Below, one piece after another: positions 15,884 through 25,274 of a DNA stretch of 64,000 nucleotides (position 1 is the first letter of the stretch; each line of letters opens with the position of its first letter). This stretch comes from an uncultured Ignavibacteria bacterium. GTDB lineage: Bacteria; Bacteroidota; Ignavibacteria; Kapaibacteriales; UBA2268. Location of the stretch: positions 1 through 64,000 of the forward strand of contig CAIOZA010000107.1 of NCBI GenBank assembly GCA_903862655.1, given 5' to 3'. The translations under genes and the position numbers were made by a program. The notes beneath the pieces were generated by a model. The model saw nothing but the letters and a program-made list of their open reading frames with translations, did not search any database and was not told where the DNA came from.

Positions 15884-18800
15884 ATGAAAGCAGACGTGGT
15901 AAAATTCTCTTGCATATCAACATTGATTCTTATTTTATTTTTCGGGACGTTAATCGCCACGCCGGAAGATAATGGCTTTAAAGTAATCCGTTCGGATGCC
16001 AATAGTTTGATTGTTTCGTATAAACCTATCGTTGAGAGATGGGATACGATTATTACTGCAGATGGATATTTAACAATGTTGCCAGTGATTAAAGGATCAT
16101 TTAATAAATCCCGTATACCAGGTTCTCCTTCGCTTATCGCAATAAATGCCACAATTACTGTACCCGGTGAAAGTGGTTTTTATCTCAATAGTATTAACAT
16201 CACAGGATATCACCAGATTAGAGGATGGATGACACCATATCCTGAATTAAATCCAAACGACTGGAAGGCAAGTGAGAAATTCACAACTGAACCTTCTGTT
16301 TATGCAACTTATCCTTTGCAGGCAAATCCTGAGCTTGTTTATACCGGGATAGCCAGAGACAGGCATGTTGCTACATTGGAGCTGATAGTCGCTCGGTTCA
16401 ATTCTGTTAATCAATCTATAGAAATTCCGAACGAAATTATTTTTGAAGTCAGATTCGAACATAATAACATCAAAATCAATAATCAACCTGATGATACTCC
16501 AGCTTTCACACTTAATCACAATGAATCCAAAAACTGGAGAATTGCTACTACTTACAAAGTTATTGCAGGCGACAAGCATTCAAAAGATAAAACTCTTGGA
16601 ATCAGCGGTGGCAACTGGATTAAAATTACTATAAACAAAGAGGGAATCTATTCCATCGATGCTTCCTCGATATCATCAATAGGATTCGAAATCCCTAAAG
16701 ACCAGATCGGTACAATAAAGATATTTGGTAATGGTGGAATGGAACTCAGCGAAACTGTTGCAGATGCGGCAAAGAATATCTTGAATGAACAGCCAATAAT
16801 TGTCAAAACAAACGCTAGTGGGGACTTATCTTCAATTATCTTTTATGCTCTTGGACCTCAGGGATTCGCTTATGACGGAACTTCGTTCTCTGGTTGGTTT
16901 AATCATTATAGTGACAAAAGTTACTATCTGCTAACCTGGGGCGGAGATCTAGGCAAAAGAGCAGAACCTCAGTCGAGTAATCCCGGTCAGATAGTCAATT
17001 ACCCACAAACATATACTGAGAGAATTCTCTTCAAAGAAGAGCTTAATTGTGCATTAATGGGTGGATCCGGCCGAATATGGTTCGGAGGGTCAATTTTCCC
17101 AAGATCATTTAATAATAATTTGAATAACATTGACAGAATCAGCGATATCTTTTATAGAGTTTCTTTTGCACAGAGAGCATCAGATGTAGGTGAATTTACC
17201 GTTAGCGAAAGCGGCAACAAAATATCCAGCATCAGAATTCAGCCAAACGCTAATGAAGCATATTTAGATGGAAGGTCTGGGGTTGTTTCTGGAAAAATTA
17301 ACGGATCGTATATTGGACAGGACAACAGAAGTGTGCTCAATATGACTTATACAAATCCGATGATTTCAAGTGCAAGTCCATTTTTTAATTGGTATGAGAT
17401 TCATTATACAAGAAGTTTTGTACCGGTTGATAATCAGATTACATTCTGGACTGACGCCAATATTTTGGGGGGTACCCAATATAGTATTAATAATTTCTCC
17501 GGAGAAATGGTGGGATTCGATATCACCGAACCTGCAAAGCCATTCCAGATAACAAATGAATCAGTGACTGGTGGAATGTTTGTATTCGGAGTCAAAGCCG
17601 ATTCGAATAAACCTCATAAATATGCTGTGTCCGCATCATTCATGAAGCCTGAGTTAACTGTAACTTCCTTCGGGAATTTACGAGAAAAATTCGCTAATAG
17701 CGAAGTAATAATTATTACTCATCCACAGCTTTTAAATTCTGCTGAGAAATATCAAGAACTAAGAAAAGATCATAAATCCACAATTATCACAACAGACCTG
17801 ATATATAATGAATTTGGTTCAGGAATACCAGATCCAACTGCTATTCGTGATTTTATTTCTTTTGCCTTGGCTAACTGGGATACAAAACCAAAATATTTAG
17901 TCTTATGGGGCGATGGACACTACGATTTTAAAAATATATCAACAAAAGCTGTAAACTTCATCCCGCCTTATGAATCGGTTGAATATTCTGATTCTTACTC
18001 AGCTACCCAATCCTACTCAAGTGACGATTACTATGCCAGAGCAAGAGGCAATGATCCCTTTATAGACATTATGATTGGTAGATTACCTGTTGCCTCCGAC
18101 GAAGAGGGTTTGTGGATGGTTAAAAAGTTGGATATATACGACAATAGTTCCAGTGAAGATTACTGGAGAACTATGATGACACTCGTTGCTGACGATGGTC
18201 CAACAACAAATGGAGGCAGTGATCACAACACACATACACTTCAATCCGAGAAGCTTGCAAATGATGTTATAAAAGAATATATGCAGATCCGTAAGATTTA
18301 TTTGCCGGAATACCCCACTGAAAATATTCCTAACGGCAGACGCAAACCTAGAGTTACTGAGGATATAGTCTCATACGTAAATAATGCAGGAACACTAACT
18401 CTAAACTGGGTTGGTCACGGTAATCCACGTGTTTGGGCTCATGAAGAAATATTTGACCGTGATAAAACTATAGCTCAGTTCAACAATTTGAATAAATTAT
18501 TCTTTAATACTGCTGCAACTTGTGATTTTGCCAGATTCGACATGACTGATACGAGATCCGGTGCTGAAGCATTGCTCCTTGCCAGAAACGGTGGATCTAT
18601 TGGAGAGTTTTCGTCCACACGTGTTGTTTATTCCTATGATAATGCTATGATTAATGAGGCTTTCCATTCGCATCTTTTCGATCGGGTCGGTTCTACAAAA
18701 CGATATCAGGATCTGGGTGAAATCATGTTTGATGTTAAGCAGGAAAAATCAAATTCCAACGATGTGAAATATAATCTCTTCGGTGATCCGTTAACACATC

Positions 18801-19885
18801 TCCTGATGCCATACTATATTGTCAGAGTCGACTCGGTCAATGGTAAATATGCGAATACTCCAGGTGATACTATTAAACTTAAAGCATTATCTGAAGTAAG
18901 AGTCGTTGCTTCTGTAGTTAGTCCTGTAGATTCTTCGGTAGTAAAAGGCTTTAACGGTATTTCAACTCTTGTTATGAATGATGCTGATTATACTATAAAT
19001 GTGTTGGATGTAGATATACCTCCATCAACACATACGATCAATAAAATGGGTGGAGCATTGTCAAGAGGATCGTTCGAAGTTACCAATGGGAATATCAATG
19101 CTAGTTTCTATCTTCCGGAAGACATAAGCTTTATTAACGGAGCCGGAAGACTTTATATTTACGCTAAATCTGATGACAGCCTTTATGCTAACGGAGTTTT
19201 TAGAAAATTCAAACTAGTTGGAGTAGATTCTATCACATTTATTCCTTCTAAACCAAAATTGGATATTTTTCTGGATACACTTGCATTTAATTCAGGAGAT
19301 TATGTTAGTGATAATCCTATCTTGATAGTCCAAGCAAAAGATGATTACGGGATCAATACAACAGGATCTGGCATCGGTCACAGGATGGAAGCATGGATTG
19401 ACGATAATTCGGAAGCACTAGATCTCACATCCAAAGCTCAGGCTCTGCCGGGAAATGGTGGAATAGTTGAAGCCAGACAAACATTGTTCAACCTTAAACC
19501 CGGGATTCACAAAATACGCTCAAGAGTATGGAATGTATTCAATGAATATACGACTGCAGAGACTTATTTTAGAATAGCTGGTACCGGATTTATGATTACA
19601 GATATATTATGTGTCCCCAATCCGATGCGGAACACTACGATAGTCAGATTCCGCCATAACCAGAATCAGCCGTTTAATGCTACATTAAAGATATATGATA
19701 TGACTGGGAACATGGTTAGGCAAATTGATATGAATATAAGTTCCGTCCATACTTCAGAGATTATCTGGGATGGACTGGATATGAATAACAAACAGGTTTC
19801 ATCGGGAGAATACATTGTTTATCTTGATGTAAATGCCTCCGGAGAACGAACTAATGCGACAACTGGCGTAATTGTGATAAAATAA
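15884..19885 (+). CDS. porU: Type IX secretion system sortase PorU (C25 peptidase)
   Basis: PorU is the outer-membrane cysteine transpeptidase that removes the C-terminal sorting domain of T9SS cargo and attaches the cargo to a lipid anchor. The 1333-residue protein has an N-terminal hydrophobic signal, a gingipain-type N-terminal region, and the C25 peptidase core at about residues 600-960. The core shows YLVLWGDGHYDF, the catalytic H845 in NWVGHGNPRVWAHEE and catalytic C880 in NTAATCDFARFD. The C-terminus (about 1240-1333, NPMRNTTIVRF to YIVYLDVNASGE) is a FlgD-like Ig or CTD-type fold. It lies 75 bases upstream of porV, its known functional partner, in a probable operon. Confidence 0.92.
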   Translation: MKADVVKFSCISTLILILFFGTLIATPEDNGFKVIRSDANSLIVSYKPIVERWDTIITADGYLTMLPVIKGSFNKSRIPGSPSLIAINATITVPGESGFYLNSINITGYHQIRGWMTPYPELNPNDWKASEKFTTEPSVYATYPLQANPELVYTGIARDRHVATLELIVARFNSVNQSIEIPNEIIFEVRFEHNNIKINNQPDDTPAFTLNHNESKNWRIATTYKVIAGDKHSKDKTLGISGGNWIKITINKEGIYSIDASSISSIGFEIPKDQIGTIKIFGNGGMELSETVADAAKNILNEQPIIVKTNASGDLSSIIFYALGPQGFAYDGTSFSGWFNHYSDKSYYLLTWGGDLGKRAEPQSSNPGQIVNYPQTYTERILFKEELNCALMGGSGRIWFGGSIFPRSFNNNLNNIDRISDIFYRVSFAQRASDVGEFTVSESGNKISSIRIQPNANEAYLDGRSGVVSGKINGSYIGQDNRSVLNMTYTNPMISSASPFFNWYEIHYTRSFVPVDNQITFWTDANILGGTQYSINNFSGEMVGFDITEPAKPFQITNESVTGGMFVFGVKADSNKPHKYAVSASFMKPELTVTSFGNLREKFANSEVIIITHPQLLNSAEKYQELRKDHKSTIITTDLIYNEFGSGIPDPTAIRDFISFALANWDTKPKYLVLWGDGHYDFKNISTKAVNFIPPYESVEYSDSYSATQSYSSDDYYARARGNDPFIDIMIGRLPVASDEEGLWMVKKLDIYDNSSSEDYWRTMMTLVADDGPTTNGGSDHNTHTLQSEKLANDVIKEYMQIRKIYLPEYPTENIPNGRRKPRVTEDIVSYVNNAGTLTLNWVGHGNPRVWAHEEIFDRDKTIAQFNNLNKLFFNTAATCDFARFDMTDTRSGAEALLLARNGGSIGEFSSTRVVYSYDNAMINEAFHSHLFDRVGSTKRYQDLGEIMFDVKQEKSNSNDVKYNLFGDPLTHLLMPYYIVRVDSVNGKYANTPGDTIKLKALSEVRVVASVVSPVDSSVVKGFNGISTLVMNDADYTINVLDVDIPPSTHTINKMGGALSRGSFEVTNGNINASFYLPEDISFINGAGRLYIYAKSDDSLYANGVFRKFKLVGVDSITFIPSKPKLDIFLDTLAFNSGDYVSDNPILIVQAKDDYGINTTGSGIGHRMEAWIDDNSEALDLTSKAQALPGNGGIVEARQTLFNLKPGIHKIRSRVWNVFNEYTTAETYFRIAGTGFMITDILCVPNPMRNTTIVRFRHNQNQPFNATLKIYDMTGNMVRQIDMNISSVHTSEIIWDGLDMNNKQVSSGEYIVYLDVNASGERTNATTGVIVIK

Positions 19886-19960
19886 TTTTAGCCGGGTTGA
19901 ATTTTTAGCACAAATATTGATAATAAACATTATTTATAATCCTTGTTTTGAGAAATAGAA

Positions 19961-21091
19961 ATGAAAAATTGGAGTAACAAACAGATGAGCATTAAAATCA
20001 GAATGGGCCTTTATTTTGCTTCGATAGCAGTGGCGATGTTCTCATCAATGAATATGTACGGTCAAGCCGGCGGTGCTGCTGTACCATTCCTGACGATTTC
20101 GCCGGACGCACGTTCGAGTGGAATGGGAGAAGTAGGAACAGCTGTAGCTGATGATATCTTTGCAGTTTATTGGAATCCAGCCGGACTTGCATTCCATGAT
20201 TATGTGGACGATGGATCAGATCCAGAGCACAGAATCCCATTTAGGCAGATATCTCTTGCTTTCTCGAAATGGCTCCCACAGTTCAATGCTGATTTATACT
20301 ACAGCTATGGAACTTTTGGGCAATATTTCCCGAGTCTCGATGGTACTCTGGCTTTTAATGCTACATACATGCATCTTGGAGAGTTCACAAGAACTTATGA
20401 GAATGGTAAAGTAGCAGGTACATTCCTTTCCAATGAATTTGCGCTTGGTGTTTCTTATGCTACCATTATTGCTACTGATCTTGGCGTAGGTGTTCAGCTG
20501 AAATACATTCAGTCAAACCTGGCTCCTGCAACAACTGCGGCTGATGTAGCAGGTATTGGCAGAAGTGGTGGATTCGATTTTTCTGTTATGTGGAAACCCC
20601 AGCAATTAAACGTTTTTGGGCTGGATATGGCCGACAACCTTTCTCTTGGACTCAATTTACAGAATATTGGGCCTAAAGTTACTTACAGAAGTGAATCTGA
20701 TCCTTTGCCTACAACACTCAGAATAGGCTCTGCATATACTATTGTTAGGGATGATTATAATGATCTGAAGGTTGCTCTCGACGTATCGAAACTTCTGGTT
20801 TATCGCGACAGTCTTGGTTCGGACGCTCTTCCGGGATCATTGATTTCAGGCTGGAAGAATCCTGGAATGGAAGTTGCCGGTGGTTTAGAATACTGGTATA
20901 GTCAGGTCATAGCATTGAGGGCAGGATATTTCTATGAACCATCGCTTATCGGTGGAAGACAATTCTGGAACTTTGGTGCGAGTGTTCGTTACGATATCTT
21001 CAGAGCAGATTTCAGCTTTATCAATACTATTGAGCAGAATCATCCATTAGCTAACACTATGAGATTCTCACTCATTATTGATTGGAGATAA
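19961..21091 (+). CDS. porV: Type IX secretion system shuttle barrel PorV (LptO)
   Basis: PorV is the outer-membrane barrel that takes cargo from the T9SS translocon to the PorU sortase. The 376-residue protein has a signal peptide (cleavage near YGQAGG), the family signature PFLTISPDARSSGMGEVGTA followed by YWNPAGLAF, and about 14 amphipathic strands ending in RFSLIIDWR. Length and motifs fit PorV rather than a general FadL barrel, and its position directly after porU supports this. A strong terminator follows at 21128. No other T9SS core gene (porK, L, M, N, sov, porP) is present in the window. Confidence 0.92.
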   Translation: MKNWSNKQMSIKIRMGLYFASIAVAMFSSMNMYGQAGGAAVPFLTISPDARSSGMGEVGTAVADDIFAVYWNPAGLAFHDYVDDGSDPEHRIPFRQISLAFSKWLPQFNADLYYSYGTFGQYFPSLDGTLAFNATYMHLGEFTRTYENGKVAGTFLSNEFALGVSYATIIATDLGVGVQLKYIQSNLAPATTAADVAGIGRSGGFDFSVMWKPQQLNVFGLDMADNLSLGLNLQNIGPKVTYRSESDPLPTTLRIGSAYTIVRDDYNDLKVALDVSKLLVYRDSLGSDALPGSLISGWKNPGMEVAGGLEYWYSQVIALRAGYFYEPSLIGGRQFWNFGASVRYDIFRADFSFINTIEQNHPLANTMRFSLIIDWR

Positions 21092-21221: not shown

Positions 21222-21926
21222 ATGAGAGAAAAAATTAGAATTTTTATTGTCGCTACAGTATTGGTATCGATGATTGCCGTCTTTTCGAATATTACAAGTG
21301 CAGAAAACCCGCCTCTGGGCAAACAGTCAAGTCATAAAGCCGAAACTGACAACACTCTTTCCGATGGAAATAAGAGATTTGTTCAGAACAAGAATATGAA
21401 ATATGATTTCCCAAAAGAAAGAGAAGAGCTATCTAAAGGGCAGCATCCGAGTACAATCATTGTAACATGTTCGGATTCCCGCGTAGCACCTGAATATATA
21501 TTCGATCAGGGGCTGGGAAGTTTATTTGTTGTTAGGGTTGCCGGTAATGTGATCGATGATGTGGCTTTAGGCTCGATAGAGTATGCTGCTGAGCACCTTC
21601 ATGCTAAAAACCTGTTCATATTAGGTCATAGCTCCTGCGGTGCTGTAACGGCAGCTTTGAGCGGTAAAACTGAATCTCCCTATATTAATGCGATTTTGGA
21701 ACTTATCGAGCCATCAGTTATGAGAGTAAAATCTCAGAAAGTGAATAAGAATGAGGTTCTCGATGAAACAATTAAAGACAATGTTATAGAGCAGATTCAG
21801 AGAGCAATGAAGAGTAAAATTGTAAAGGAATTGTTTGAGAAAAAGGAGCTAACAATTTCTGGAGGGGTTTATAGCCTAAAGACAGGTAAAGTTGAAGTAG
21901 TCTTCAATCTTGACAAATTGGATTAG
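21222..21926 (+). CDS. Exported beta-class carbonic anhydrase
   Basis: It interconverts CO2 and bicarbonate. The 234-residue protein has an N-terminal signal peptide (hydrophobic residues 7-22, cleavage near TSAEN), so it acts in the periplasm, which is less common for this class. The zinc and catalytic residues are visible: C83, D85 and R87 in TCSDSR, and H136 and C139 in GHSSCGAV. The rest follows the family (DQGLGSLFVVRVAGN, ALGSIEYAAEHL). An AGGAG ribosome binding site fixes the start. It is flanked by terminators at 21128 and 21965, so it is probably a single-gene unit. Confidence 0.95.
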   Translation: MREKIRIFIVATVLVSMIAVFSNITSAENPPLGKQSSHKAETDNTLSDGNKRFVQNKNMKYDFPKEREELSKGQHPSTIIVTCSDSRVAPEYIFDQGLGSLFVVRVAGNVIDDVALGSIEYAAEHLHAKNLFILGHSSCGAVTAALSGKTESPYINAILELIEPSVMRVKSQKVNKNEVLDETIKDNVIEQIQRAMKSKIVKELFEKKELTISGGVYSLKTGKVEVVFNLDKLD

Positions 21927-22349: not shown

Positions 22350-23603
22350 ATGAGAAGAAAAATCTTAGCGATAATGACTGCTGTGTTAATCATTTCAGCA
22401 TTTTATGTCATTAATCTCCATTCCAGACCGGAATATACACTGGTTACCGGTAACAACTGCGCCAACTGCCACATGAATCCTCAAGGAGGCGGTCAACGCA
22501 CCTACGATGGAAGGTATTTCAGAAATCAGACAAGTTTAATCGGCAAAAAATTGAGTTTTTTCAAGAATTGGAACGAAGGAGAAAGTTCTTTAGATCAATA
22601 CATGTTATGGGGTTTCGATTATCGTATGCAGGATGCTATGCTCGGTAGCGAAAGAAGACTGTTCTCTATGCAGTTTACTCCATACGTGTCAATTATGCCT
22701 ACTAACTGGATGACATTATCGCTTCAGTACAATTTAATAGGAGTTTTGCACGATGCATTTAAAAATGATCCGACAATGAGTAAATTCTATATAGGTTTAT
22801 ACCCGGGTCAGAAAGGACTCCAGACAAGCGTAAGTTTCAAGCCATCAAAGGAATTGCCTACATTGAAAGTTGGATATTTCCAACCTGCAATCGGAATGAG
22901 ATATGATGATCATACTATGCTGAACAGGCAAATTAATTATACTTTCCCACCGATTTTACCACCTGACAATTCAGAGCTTGGTGCAGAAGTTAATTATGAT
23001 TATGGTCTCGATCTGCAGCTGACAGGCGGAGTATATGGTGCAAAGTCAATGTCGGAAATCATTTTTACGTATTACGACAAATTATTTATAAGACATGATG
23101 TACCTATTGTCGGAACAGGTAGCACAAGTTATCTTGGAAAAGTTGTGTATTCTCCTCGATTTGCTGAGAACTTCGTAAATACATTTGTTGGTGCGAGTTA
23201 CTTAGTTAATAGTGATTACTCACTGATGAATGCTTTTGTAGGTGTTGGACTGACTGATTATGTATCTTTATCGGGAGAGTATGTAATCTCTAACAAGAAA
23301 GATTTCAAGAAATCGAATGTTATTATGGCACAATTGCTATATCAGCCTGTTACAGCGGTTAACGTTTTTGTGAGATATGAGAATTCCGTTACTCAGGATC
23401 ATGCAATACCATCCGAAACCAACAATCCTGCTTATAGTGAGTTCACAAACGAAAAGATAGTGCTTGGTCTGGGAGTATTTGTCATTCCCAATCTTGAATT
23501 AAAACCGGAATACCGAATGCTGAGTTATAAAAATACAGCCGGCCCTAACTATGTTATGGATCCCTCGAACGAGTGGGCTTTACAATTGCATCTATACTAT
23601 TAA
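22350..23603 (+). CDS. Monoheme cytochrome-porin fusion, Cyc2-like architecture
   Basis: The 417-residue protein has a signal peptide (hydrophobic residues 5-22), then one c-type heme site, C37-A-N-C-H41, within TGNNCANCHMNPQGGG. The remaining ~350 residues are alternating amphipathic strands with aromatic girdles and a C-terminal ...WALQLHLYY, as in outer-membrane barrels. A heme plug followed by a porin in one chain is the architecture of Cyc2, an outer-membrane electron conduit of iron oxidisers. The Cyc2 N-terminal signature itself is not clearly matched, so this is a similarity of plan only. It leads a tight four-gene operon with a YceI-like protein and a Rieske protein, which supports an electron-transfer role. 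An alternative is a porin with a structural heme. Confidence 0.7.
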   Translation: MRRKILAIMTAVLIISAFYVINLHSRPEYTLVTGNNCANCHMNPQGGGQRTYDGRYFRNQTSLIGKKLSFFKNWNEGESSLDQYMLWGFDYRMQDAMLGSERRLFSMQFTPYVSIMPTNWMTLSLQYNLIGVLHDAFKNDPTMSKFYIGLYPGQKGLQTSVSFKPSKELPTLKVGYFQPAIGMRYDDHTMLNRQINYTFPPILPPDNSELGAEVNYDYGLDLQLTGGVYGAKSMSEIIFTYYDKLFIRHDVPIVGTGSTSYLGKVVYSPRFAENFVNTFVGASYLVNSDYSLMNAFVGVGLTDYVSLSGEYVISNKKDFKKSNVIMAQLLYQPVTAVNVFVRYENSVTQDHAIPSETNNPAYSEFTNEKIVLGLGVFVIPNLELKPEYRMLSYKNTAGPNYVMDPSNEWALQLHLYY

Positions 23604-23615
23604 GGAGATATGATT

Positions 23616-23945
23616 ATGAAATGGAAAGTATTAGCTGTTATTTGTCTTGTTATGATCATCCCATTACTTGGTGTATGGCTTCATGACTCAAATGACTATG
23701 GATCGAAGCTGTTCTTCAGCAAGGAGAAAAAAGAGATAACAACAACTGTAAAAGATGATCTCTTTGGCGGTAATGTTTCAAAATCTGAATGGAAAGAAGG
23801 ATTCTGGCTTGGACTTCTTCCACCGACCGATAAACTTTCTTACAGAATAATGCTCGGAGTGGTGCCACTTGGCTCCACGTTATTAGGGTTAGGTGCTATT
23901 TGCTTATTTATAGATTACAGAAAAAAAATTACAAATAAAAAATAA
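23616..23945 (+). CDS. Small membrane protein with two terminal helices
   Basis: The product is about 109 residues, with a membrane segment at the N-terminus (WKVLAVICLVMIIPLLGVWL) and one near the C-terminus (GVVPLGSTLLGLGAICLFI). A soluble loop of about 60 residues between them must face the periplasm if both ends are cytoplasmic. The ATG at 23616 is chosen over 23610 because the AAGGAG site is properly spaced from the former. It starts 12 bases after the cytochrome-porin gene and ends 11 bases before the YceI gene, so it belongs to this operon. I recognise no family; it could link the periplasmic and inner-membrane parts of the redox chain. Confidence 0.65.
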   Translation: MKWKVLAVICLVMIIPLLGVWLHDSNDYGSKLFFSKEKKEITTTVKDDLFGGNVSKSEWKEGFWLGLLPPTDKLSYRIMLGVVPLGSTLLGLGAICLFIDYRKKITNKK

Positions 23946-23956
23946 AGGGTATTTCG

Positions 23957-24625
23957 ATGAAAAATTTACTTAGAATAAGCCTGTTAATGTTTCTGATAAC
24001 CGCATTTCTTGTCAATAGTTCTTATTCAACAGATCTGAAGTTAGGCGTATCAGGCAAAAAGCAATTTAAAACAAACAAGGCAGTCGGGCCTCTGGAACTG
24101 AAATTTGTAAGCACAGCTCCACTCGAAGAAATAAGAGGATCCGTTAGTGATAAGAACATCCAAAGCACAGTTTATCTTGATCCTGCTAATCTTGAAGGAA
24201 TAAACGGTAAAGTCAGCTATCAGACAAAAAATCTCGAAACAGGTCTTAAGACCAGGGACGAACATCTAAAAAGTGACGAATGGCTCGATGCCGATAAATA
24301 TCCGGAAATATTCTTTGAAGTCAAGGGAATGAAAGATATTAAAATCATTAGTTCTGATGGCGGTAAGGCTACTATAGAAGCCACAGTTATGGGCATTTAC
24401 AGCATGCATGGAAAAACAAAATCAATCACAGTCCCAATCAAACTTATTTATATCAAGGAATCAGAAAGCTCAAAGAAGAGAGCATCCGGTGACTTTCTTT
24501 CAGTTGAGGGTAAGTTCCAGATTGCACTCAAGGATTTTGAGGTCGGTGGGAAGATGTCGACGGTAGGAAGCAAAGTTGGCGAAAAGATTGATATTAATTT
24601 TAGATTATTCTATAACATACAATAA
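23957..24625 (+). CDS. YceI-family periplasmic protein
   Basis: The 222-residue protein has a signal peptide (cleavage near NSSYSTD) and a YceI-like lipocalin-type fold: AVGPLELKFVSTAPLEEIRG at the start, then TRDEHLKSDEWLDADKYPEIFF and MGIYSMHGKTKSITVP. YceI proteins bind polyisoprenoids such as quinones. Its place between a membrane protein and a Rieske protein suggests handling of an isoprenoid quinone or a related lipid in the periplasm, though this is inference. Confidence 0.88.
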   Translation: MKNLLRISLLMFLITAFLVNSSYSTDLKLGVSGKKQFKTNKAVGPLELKFVSTAPLEEIRGSVSDKNIQSTVYLDPANLEGINGKVSYQTKNLETGLKTRDEHLKSDEWLDADKYPEIFFEVKGMKDIKIISSDGGKATIEATVMGIYSMHGKTKSITVPIKLIYIKESESSKKRASGDFLSVEGKFQIALKDFEVGGKMSTVGSKVGEKIDINFRLFYNIQ

Positions 24626-24645
24626 AGATAATGAAAGGTGCTAAT

Positions 24646-25101
24646 ATGGCTGAGGAAATTAAAAATAACAGGCGCGAGTTCCTGAAAAAAAGTGGTATGG
24701 TTGTTGGATTTGGGCTTATGTTACCAGTTTTACCGTCGTTCTTGAGTTCTTGCAGTTCTAATTCTACTGGACCAACAGAGATAACTGTTAAAATTTCCGA
24801 TTATCCTGGATTGAGCGTTAATGGCACTCCTGTCTTTGTTTCACAATCAGGTTTTAACTCAGGTTCACCGGTAATAGTTACAAGAGTATCATCGAGCGTA
24901 TTTACTATATATTCTGCTAAGTGTACTCATGAAGGTGCTACAGTTAATTTGCCATCTGGCAGTACTATCAGGTGCTCCCAACATGGCGCAGTATTCTCCG
25001 CGGCAGATGGCTCTGTAATTAGCGGACCGGCTAACTCACCATTACAGAAATTTAATGGCACTTATGATTCTGTGAATAATACACTATTGATAAGCGTTTA
25101 G
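24646..25101 (+). CDS. Tat-exported Rieske [2Fe-2S] lipoprotein
   Basis: The 151-residue protein starts with a twin-arginine signal (NNRREFLKKSG) followed by a hydrophobic stretch and a lipobox-like LSSC, so it is probably folded with its cluster, exported by Tat and then lipidated. The Rieske ligands are visible: KCTHEG (C and H) and RCSQHG (C and H), followed by the loop GPANSPLQKF typical of the family. The ATG at 24646 is preferred to 24631 because GAAAGG lies at ribosome-binding distance before it. No cytochrome b partner is adjacent, so it is not part of a bc1 complex here. It closes the redox operon. Confidence 0.9.
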   Translation: MAEEIKNNRREFLKKSGMVVGFGLMLPVLPSFLSSCSSNSTGPTEITVKISDYPGLSVNGTPVFVSQSGFNSGSPVIVTRVSSSVFTIYSAKCTHEGATVNLPSGSTIRCSQHGAVFSAADGSVISGPANSPLQKFNGTYDSVNNTLLISV

Positions 25102-25274
25102 GAAAACACAAGAAATTGAATTAAAGGCTGTCTCACAAGGGTAGCTTTTTTTGTTGTGAGTCTCTGAGTAAAATGAAGAGCGTTAGGCTCTCTGCGAAGT
25201 GAATCTTTTTAACGAGTCATCCCTGTCTGGGCAGGTATGAAAGAGCAGAACAGCGATTTGTCTGTCATGGCTTT

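Follow-up and report, generated by a model that had tools for sequence, protein, structure and literature searches.

A conserved and apparently undescribed set of genes for a Cyc2-like family of predicted heme-barrel proteins and their neighbours in Kapabacteria and relatives

How might an outer-membrane barrel with a single fused heme work together with a Rieske protein, a YceI lipocalin and a small membrane protein? The question is raised by four co-directional open reading frames on the forward strand at 22350-25101 of the window (the whole 64,000-nucleotide stretch that was analysed), arranged in the order CYT-TM-YceI-RSK with gaps of 5-11 bp. Here CYT denotes the monoheme barrel protein, TM the two-helix membrane protein and RSK the Rieske lipoprotein; the source genome comprises 4.07 Mb in 148 contigs. 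All four genes named in a preliminary description of this DNA were recovered as open reading frames at that place and on that strand. They belong to a conserved gene set, seemingly not described before, that centres on a Cyc2-like family and is most likely an outer-membrane electron-transfer module.

22350..23603, + strand: CYT, 417-aa monoheme protein, predicted outer-membrane barrel, Cyc2-like (open reading frame; AlphaFold2; profile match to Cyc2)
23610..23945, + strand: TM, 111 aa, two transmembrane helices with a predicted beta hairpin between them (open reading frame; AlphaFold2, pLDDT 67.5)
23957..24625, + strand: YceI-family lipocalin with signal peptide (Pfam PF04264, 1.2e-21)
24631..25101, + strand: RSK, Tat-type Rieske [2Fe-2S] lipoprotein (Pfam PF00355, 1.4e-8; RREFLKK, then an LSSC lipobox)
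25123..25149, + strand: terminator-like stem with T tail just 3' of the last gene (consensus scan, 3 found versus 1.7 expected, a weak signal)

A promoter scan of the DNA gave fewer matches than in shuffles. On the 5' side, the window encodes PorU, the type IX secretion sortase (NCBIfam, 4e-224), with a protein of the PorV/PorQ family after it (15884-21088), and then a carbonic anhydrase with signal peptide (21222-21926, same strand, 424 bp 5' of CYT), for which no match adjoins CYT in the relatives examined.

A predicted heme-bearing barrel distantly related to Cyc2

CYT has a signal peptide, one CXXCH and a C terminus that reads ...LHLYY. The following features lie within its gene.

22458..22472, + strand: CANCH, residues 37-41, sole c-type heme site of CYT, directly after the signal peptide (sequence)
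22602..23597, + strand: 16 barrel strands, residues 85-416 (AlphaFold2 and DSSP)
22668..22670, + strand: Met107, strand 2, invariant 64/64, candidate heme ligand
22908..22913, + strand: Asp187-His188, long loop after strand 5, each invariant 64/64, candidate distal heme ligand or metal site

As a raw DNA pattern, CXXCH is not above chance in the window (5 seen versus 3.3 expected). Within CYT, C37, C40 and H41 are invariant in all 64 distinct homologues, and the single site right after the signal peptide, already remarked on in the preliminary description, is thus a constant of the family. No Pfam or NCBIfam family matches CYT above cut-off, and no PDB sequence is significantly similar to it (best E 0.1). 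The AlphaFold2 model (47 sequences) is a 16-strand barrel with pLDDT 79.6 and pTM 0.79, so that the full barrel claimed earlier is predicted here for residues 85-416. Its closest solved structures are OprP and OprO (2o4v, 4rjw; Z 23.8, 3.5 Å over 287 residues), and general porins rank after them (Z 20-22). The heme-bearing segment, residues 22-80, has pLDDT values of 39-52, too low to place the heme relative to the barrel. In classical porins, the loop L3 constricts the pore. The loop after strand 5 of CYT (residues 178-208 in the AlphaFold2 strand order) would correspond to L3 by porin strand order, with both termini periplasmic, and its His188 could serve as second heme ligand. The invariance of His188 and Met107 makes the question of a heme in the pore open to direct test.

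The similarity to ordinary porins, at Z about 20, could also point to a substrate porin, in which the heme would be a redox gate or a structural plug and YceI, TM and RSK would be maintenance or maturation factors instead of an electron path. The seven of the 68 CYT loci tallied below that have no RSK, TM or YceI nearby would agree with this. However, one would hardly expect a passive porin to conserve CXXCH strictly along with two more potential ligands, or to have a Rieske gene beside it in most loci, and we regard this explanation as decidedly unlikely.

The gene for Cyc2, which a short motif identifies, is used as a marker of iron oxidation. Cyc2 is a fusion of a monoheme cytochrome and a 16-strand OprO/OprP-like porin, modelled on those porins by Keffer 2021, and its heme site is preceded by the motif AXPXFAR[QK][TY] and followed by PXL (PMC8406198). 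CYT resembles it in having a signal peptide followed by one N-terminal-proximal CXXCH, a 16-strand barrel that is OprO/OprP-like both in the AlphaFold2 model and by its best PDB matches, and a size of about 400 aa, its 417 aa exceeding the Cyc2 minimum of 365 aa. Both motifs are absent from the window CYT, which reads SRPEYTLVTGNNCANCH upstream of CXXCH, and CHMNPQGGG where PXL would stand four residues downstream. In their place, CYT has P-[QE]-[YF]-[ST] and CxxCHxx-QGGGxR, and it differs from Cyc2 also in the invariant His188 and Met107. We therefore rejected the assignment of CYT to Cyc2 and treat it as a separate Cyc2-like family. Its partners differ as well, being Rieske, TM and YceI genes versus cyc1, rusticyanin and aa3 in the rus operon of Acidithiobacillus (PMC10654088).

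We compared CYT by hhalign with a profile of motif-bearing Cyc2-like proteins, drawn from related genomes and plasmid records, and obtained 98.4% (E 5.7e-15, 333 columns). Taken by part, the heme portion gave 96.7%, the barrel 95.8% and the mature protein 97.5%, versus 0.1-1.1% for reversed-Cyc2 controls. Judging from these alignments, the CYT and Cyc2 families are very likely homologous but distinct, distant rather than close kin. Of the Cyc2-like plan first proposed for this protein, the single heme, the 16-strand OprP/OprO-like barrel and a distant, full-length profile homology have held up, but neither of the Cyc2 motifs was found. Bacteroidota relatives also carry a second Cyc2-like group, consisting of Cyc2-size monoheme proteins with FAR[KQ]Y and one CXXCH (L155-L163, L166, L167; e.g., in genomes G008, G019 and G131).

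The shared architecture and distant homology could be taken to mean that CYT is a Cyc2-type Fe(II) oxidase, passing electrons from dissolved Fe2+ via RSK to the respiratory chain, and the invariant D187-H188 in the predicted pore loop could bind metal. Against this stand the absence of both motifs and a paralogous gene cluster, described below, whose b561-NapC protein makes it look at least as suited to electron export. On the sequences at hand, we rate Fe(II) oxidation by CYT as very unlikely.

Gene order and the partners of CYT

We found CYT in 119 of 149 related genomes. Gene order was tallied for the 68 distinct CYT loci with at least 2 kb downstream. A Rieske gene lies downstream of CYT, on the same strand and within 2.5 kb, in 52 of them; TM is found in 43 and YceI in 26, and TM, YceI and RSK are all present in the window order in 20. 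The four-gene order is thus conserved in other genomes rather than scattered, which the preliminary description had left to be checked. Across the taxonomic order, the complete arrangement is present in at least seven families (f1, f3, f5, f7, f8, f9, f10), with CYT-TM-RSK in another (f2). A scan of genome contigs with an 8-sequence CYT alignment gave named homologous loci from genomes assembled from metagenomes of Candidatus Kapabacteria, Ignavibacteria, Chlorobiota and Latescibacterota, CYT and TM occurring together in Latescibacterota too; the window DNA presumably stems from a kapabacterium. Shorter arrangements are also common, with CYT-RSK in 14 of the 68 loci and CYT-TM-RSK in another 14. 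Homologues of TM occupy 87 places in the 149 genomes, 59 of them directly after CYT; the other places that were fetched are mostly TM-YceI pairs at a distance from CYT, in some cases next to genes for ABC transporters (pairs with neither CYT nor Rieske include L117-L121 and L124). We rejected a single obligate four-gene unit, since TM-YceI exists without CYT and CYT-RSK without TM-YceI. There are two modules, a CYT-RSK core and a separable TM-YceI pair. The literature searched contains no description of a CYT-YceI-Rieske set, in line with the initial impression that it was undescribed, although this is weak evidence of absence.

Further heme-site proteins occur around the cluster in relatives. 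Two loci encode long secreted proteins with an N-terminal GCxxCH downstream of it (L061:10097-12907, with Ig-type domains, and L079:10104-12893). Upstream of CYT, several loci encode a small lipoprotein-like protein that has a C-x(2-4)-CH heme site and matches Haem_bd or PSCyt1 weakly, as at L069:4486-4893 and L090:4724-5119.

The two-helix membrane protein and the YceI-like protein expected after CYT are both present. TM matches no Pfam or NCBIfam family above cut-off. Its AlphaFold2 model shows helix, beta hairpin and helix with low to moderate confidence, the hairpin being tentative. Judging by the positive residues at either end, the protein would have its two termini in the cytoplasm and its hairpin in the periplasm. 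The YceI gene, single copy in the source genome, is identified by PF04264 at 78 bits versus a cut-off of 23.7, and its product matches YceI proteins of the PDB at 1e-6. YceI lipocalins bind ubiquinone-8 and octaprenyl lipids, and BcnA together with the cytochrome b561 LcoA protects from lipid peroxyl radicals (PMC9113575). These properties give rise both to the idea of a quinone carrier and to its main rival, an envelope antioxidant system, in which YceI-bound quinol would quench lipid peroxyl radicals of the outer membrane, as proposed for BcnA-LcoA, while TM, RSK and CYT recycle the quinol or drain electrons, with no part in energy metabolism. The pairing of a YceI lipocalin with a redox partner in the membrane is known from detoxification (PMC9113575), and here too a YceI lipocalin adjoins a small membrane protein, also as a stand-alone pair without CYT. 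An aerobic way of life would agree with the single haem-copper oxidase gene (COX1) and the four NrfD-type proteins of the genome. However, the set contains no cytochrome b561. TM, unlike LcoA, does not belong to that family and shows no obvious pattern of heme ligands, and a Rieske protein and a heme barrel are added to the pair. Moreover, CYT-RSK without YceI is common, in the two shorter arrangements counted above, and the paralogous CYT-RSK pair described below adjoins multiheme cytochromes, not YceI. We consider a purely antioxidant role unlikely.

RSK is a Rieske protein by PF00355 (35 bits versus a cut-off of 20.3) and matches b6f-type Rieske chains of the PDB at 5e-6; with the RREFLKK motif and the LSSC lipobox, this agrees with the Tat-exported Rieske lipoprotein proposed earlier.

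24922..24984, + strand: Rieske cluster ligands CTH...CSQH (sequence)

It is like the Rieske subunits of bc1/b6f complexes and arsenite oxidase in its [2Fe-2S] ligand boxes and Tat-like signal, but differs from them in being a lipoprotein with no cytochrome b or molybdenum enzyme adjoining. In Rieske proteins of the bc1/b6f type, an extra pair of cysteines makes a disulfide next to the cluster. This pair is present in 36 of 54 related Rieske proteins; the window copy has Ala and Gln there, and by comparison with known Rieske types its potential may therefore be lower.

Many related Rieske lipoproteins (e.g., in L034, L044 and L046) have C-E-[KQ]-[DN]-E directly after the lipobox Cys. Within six positions of the lipid-anchored Cys, 47 of 50 members of the Rieske family have at least one acid and 33 at least two; among 39 other lipoproteins encoded in these loci, the counts are 26 and 3. 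The tag resembles the K-(D/E)2 signal for surface export of lipoproteins in Bacteroidetes (PMC5080379), and if it functions here, many related Rieske proteins would face outward. A periplasmic location of the Rieske protein is therefore only putative. It could even be that a surface-flipped RSK is, in most members, the outer electron port in place of a multiheme cytochrome, with CYT as its partner and YceI ferrying quinone through the periplasm, in Kapabacteria, Ignavibacteria and Latescibacterota; we think this rather unlikely, and the window RSK (CSSNSTG) itself has no acidic tag.

A paralogous pair and the proposed electron path

The strongest hint of a role for CYT-RSK in transmembrane electron transfer comes from a second such pair in the source genome (G000:C20, locus L041, 1-7492), which lies in a multiheme cytochrome cluster. 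There, CYT and RSK come after a 5-heme lipoprotein that has an MtrC/MtrF-type domain and are followed by a monoheme c, a 13-heme c and a cytochrome b561-NapC multiheme protein. At least six further loci (L027, L034, L044, L046, L047 and L055) repeat this order, the successive gene products having 5-6, 1, 0, 1, 13 and 3-6 hemes; in L041 and L047 the last gene is cut by the end of the locus. In the CYT tree, the proteins of L041, L043, L046, L047, L048, L055 and L056 group as a single clade (SH-aLRT 100%). Possibly, this paralogous cluster is more interesting than the window set. Like MtrCAB, MtoAB and the OmbB/OmaB/OmcB system of Geobacter, these genes join an outer-membrane barrel to c-type heme, and the paralogous cluster further resembles porin-cytochrome conduits in its multiheme cytochromes, one with the MtrC/MtrF-type domain. 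The MtoB/PioB barrel has 26 strands (PMC10654088). MtrAB-type conduits are defined by a separate multiheme cytochrome held in such a wide barrel, an arrangement absent from the window CYT, which has 16 strands and one fused heme instead.

On balance, we favor reading the window genes as an outer-membrane electron-transfer module composed of the heme barrel, a Rieske partner, a YceI carrier and TM, and hold this to be somewhat probable. The most likely place for the heme would be at the pore or inside it, with His41 as one ligand and perhaps His188 of loop L3, or Met107, as another, and CYT would carry single electrons across the outer membrane. Since CYT and RSK are the most conserved pair, RSK may be the immediate redox partner of CYT. 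YceI, held or loaded by TM at the inner membrane, would probably ferry an isoprenoid or quinone between the membranes. Counting against the module is that no multiheme partner adjoins the window set, and one heme alone may not suffice to span the membrane. The window CYT is moreover a long branch (1.57) in the CYT tree, and neither the disulfide cysteines nor the acidic tag of related Rieske proteins is found in the RSK beside it; the function of this copy may therefore have shifted. As the window copy evolves fast and is missing some traits of its kin, the argument draws more on the family than on this copy itself.

What stands out is a widespread family related to Cyc2, with the architecture of Cyc2 but not its motif, and with a different constant partner, a Rieske lipoprotein. 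Kapabacteria and their relatives are lineages with very few cultured members. If the electron-transfer reading is true, a minimal conduit would consist of one heme and one iron-sulfur cluster, and, provided that CYT carries electrons through the outer membrane, current marker searches would understate how common extracellular electron transfer is among Kapabacteria, Ignavibacteria and Latescibacterota.
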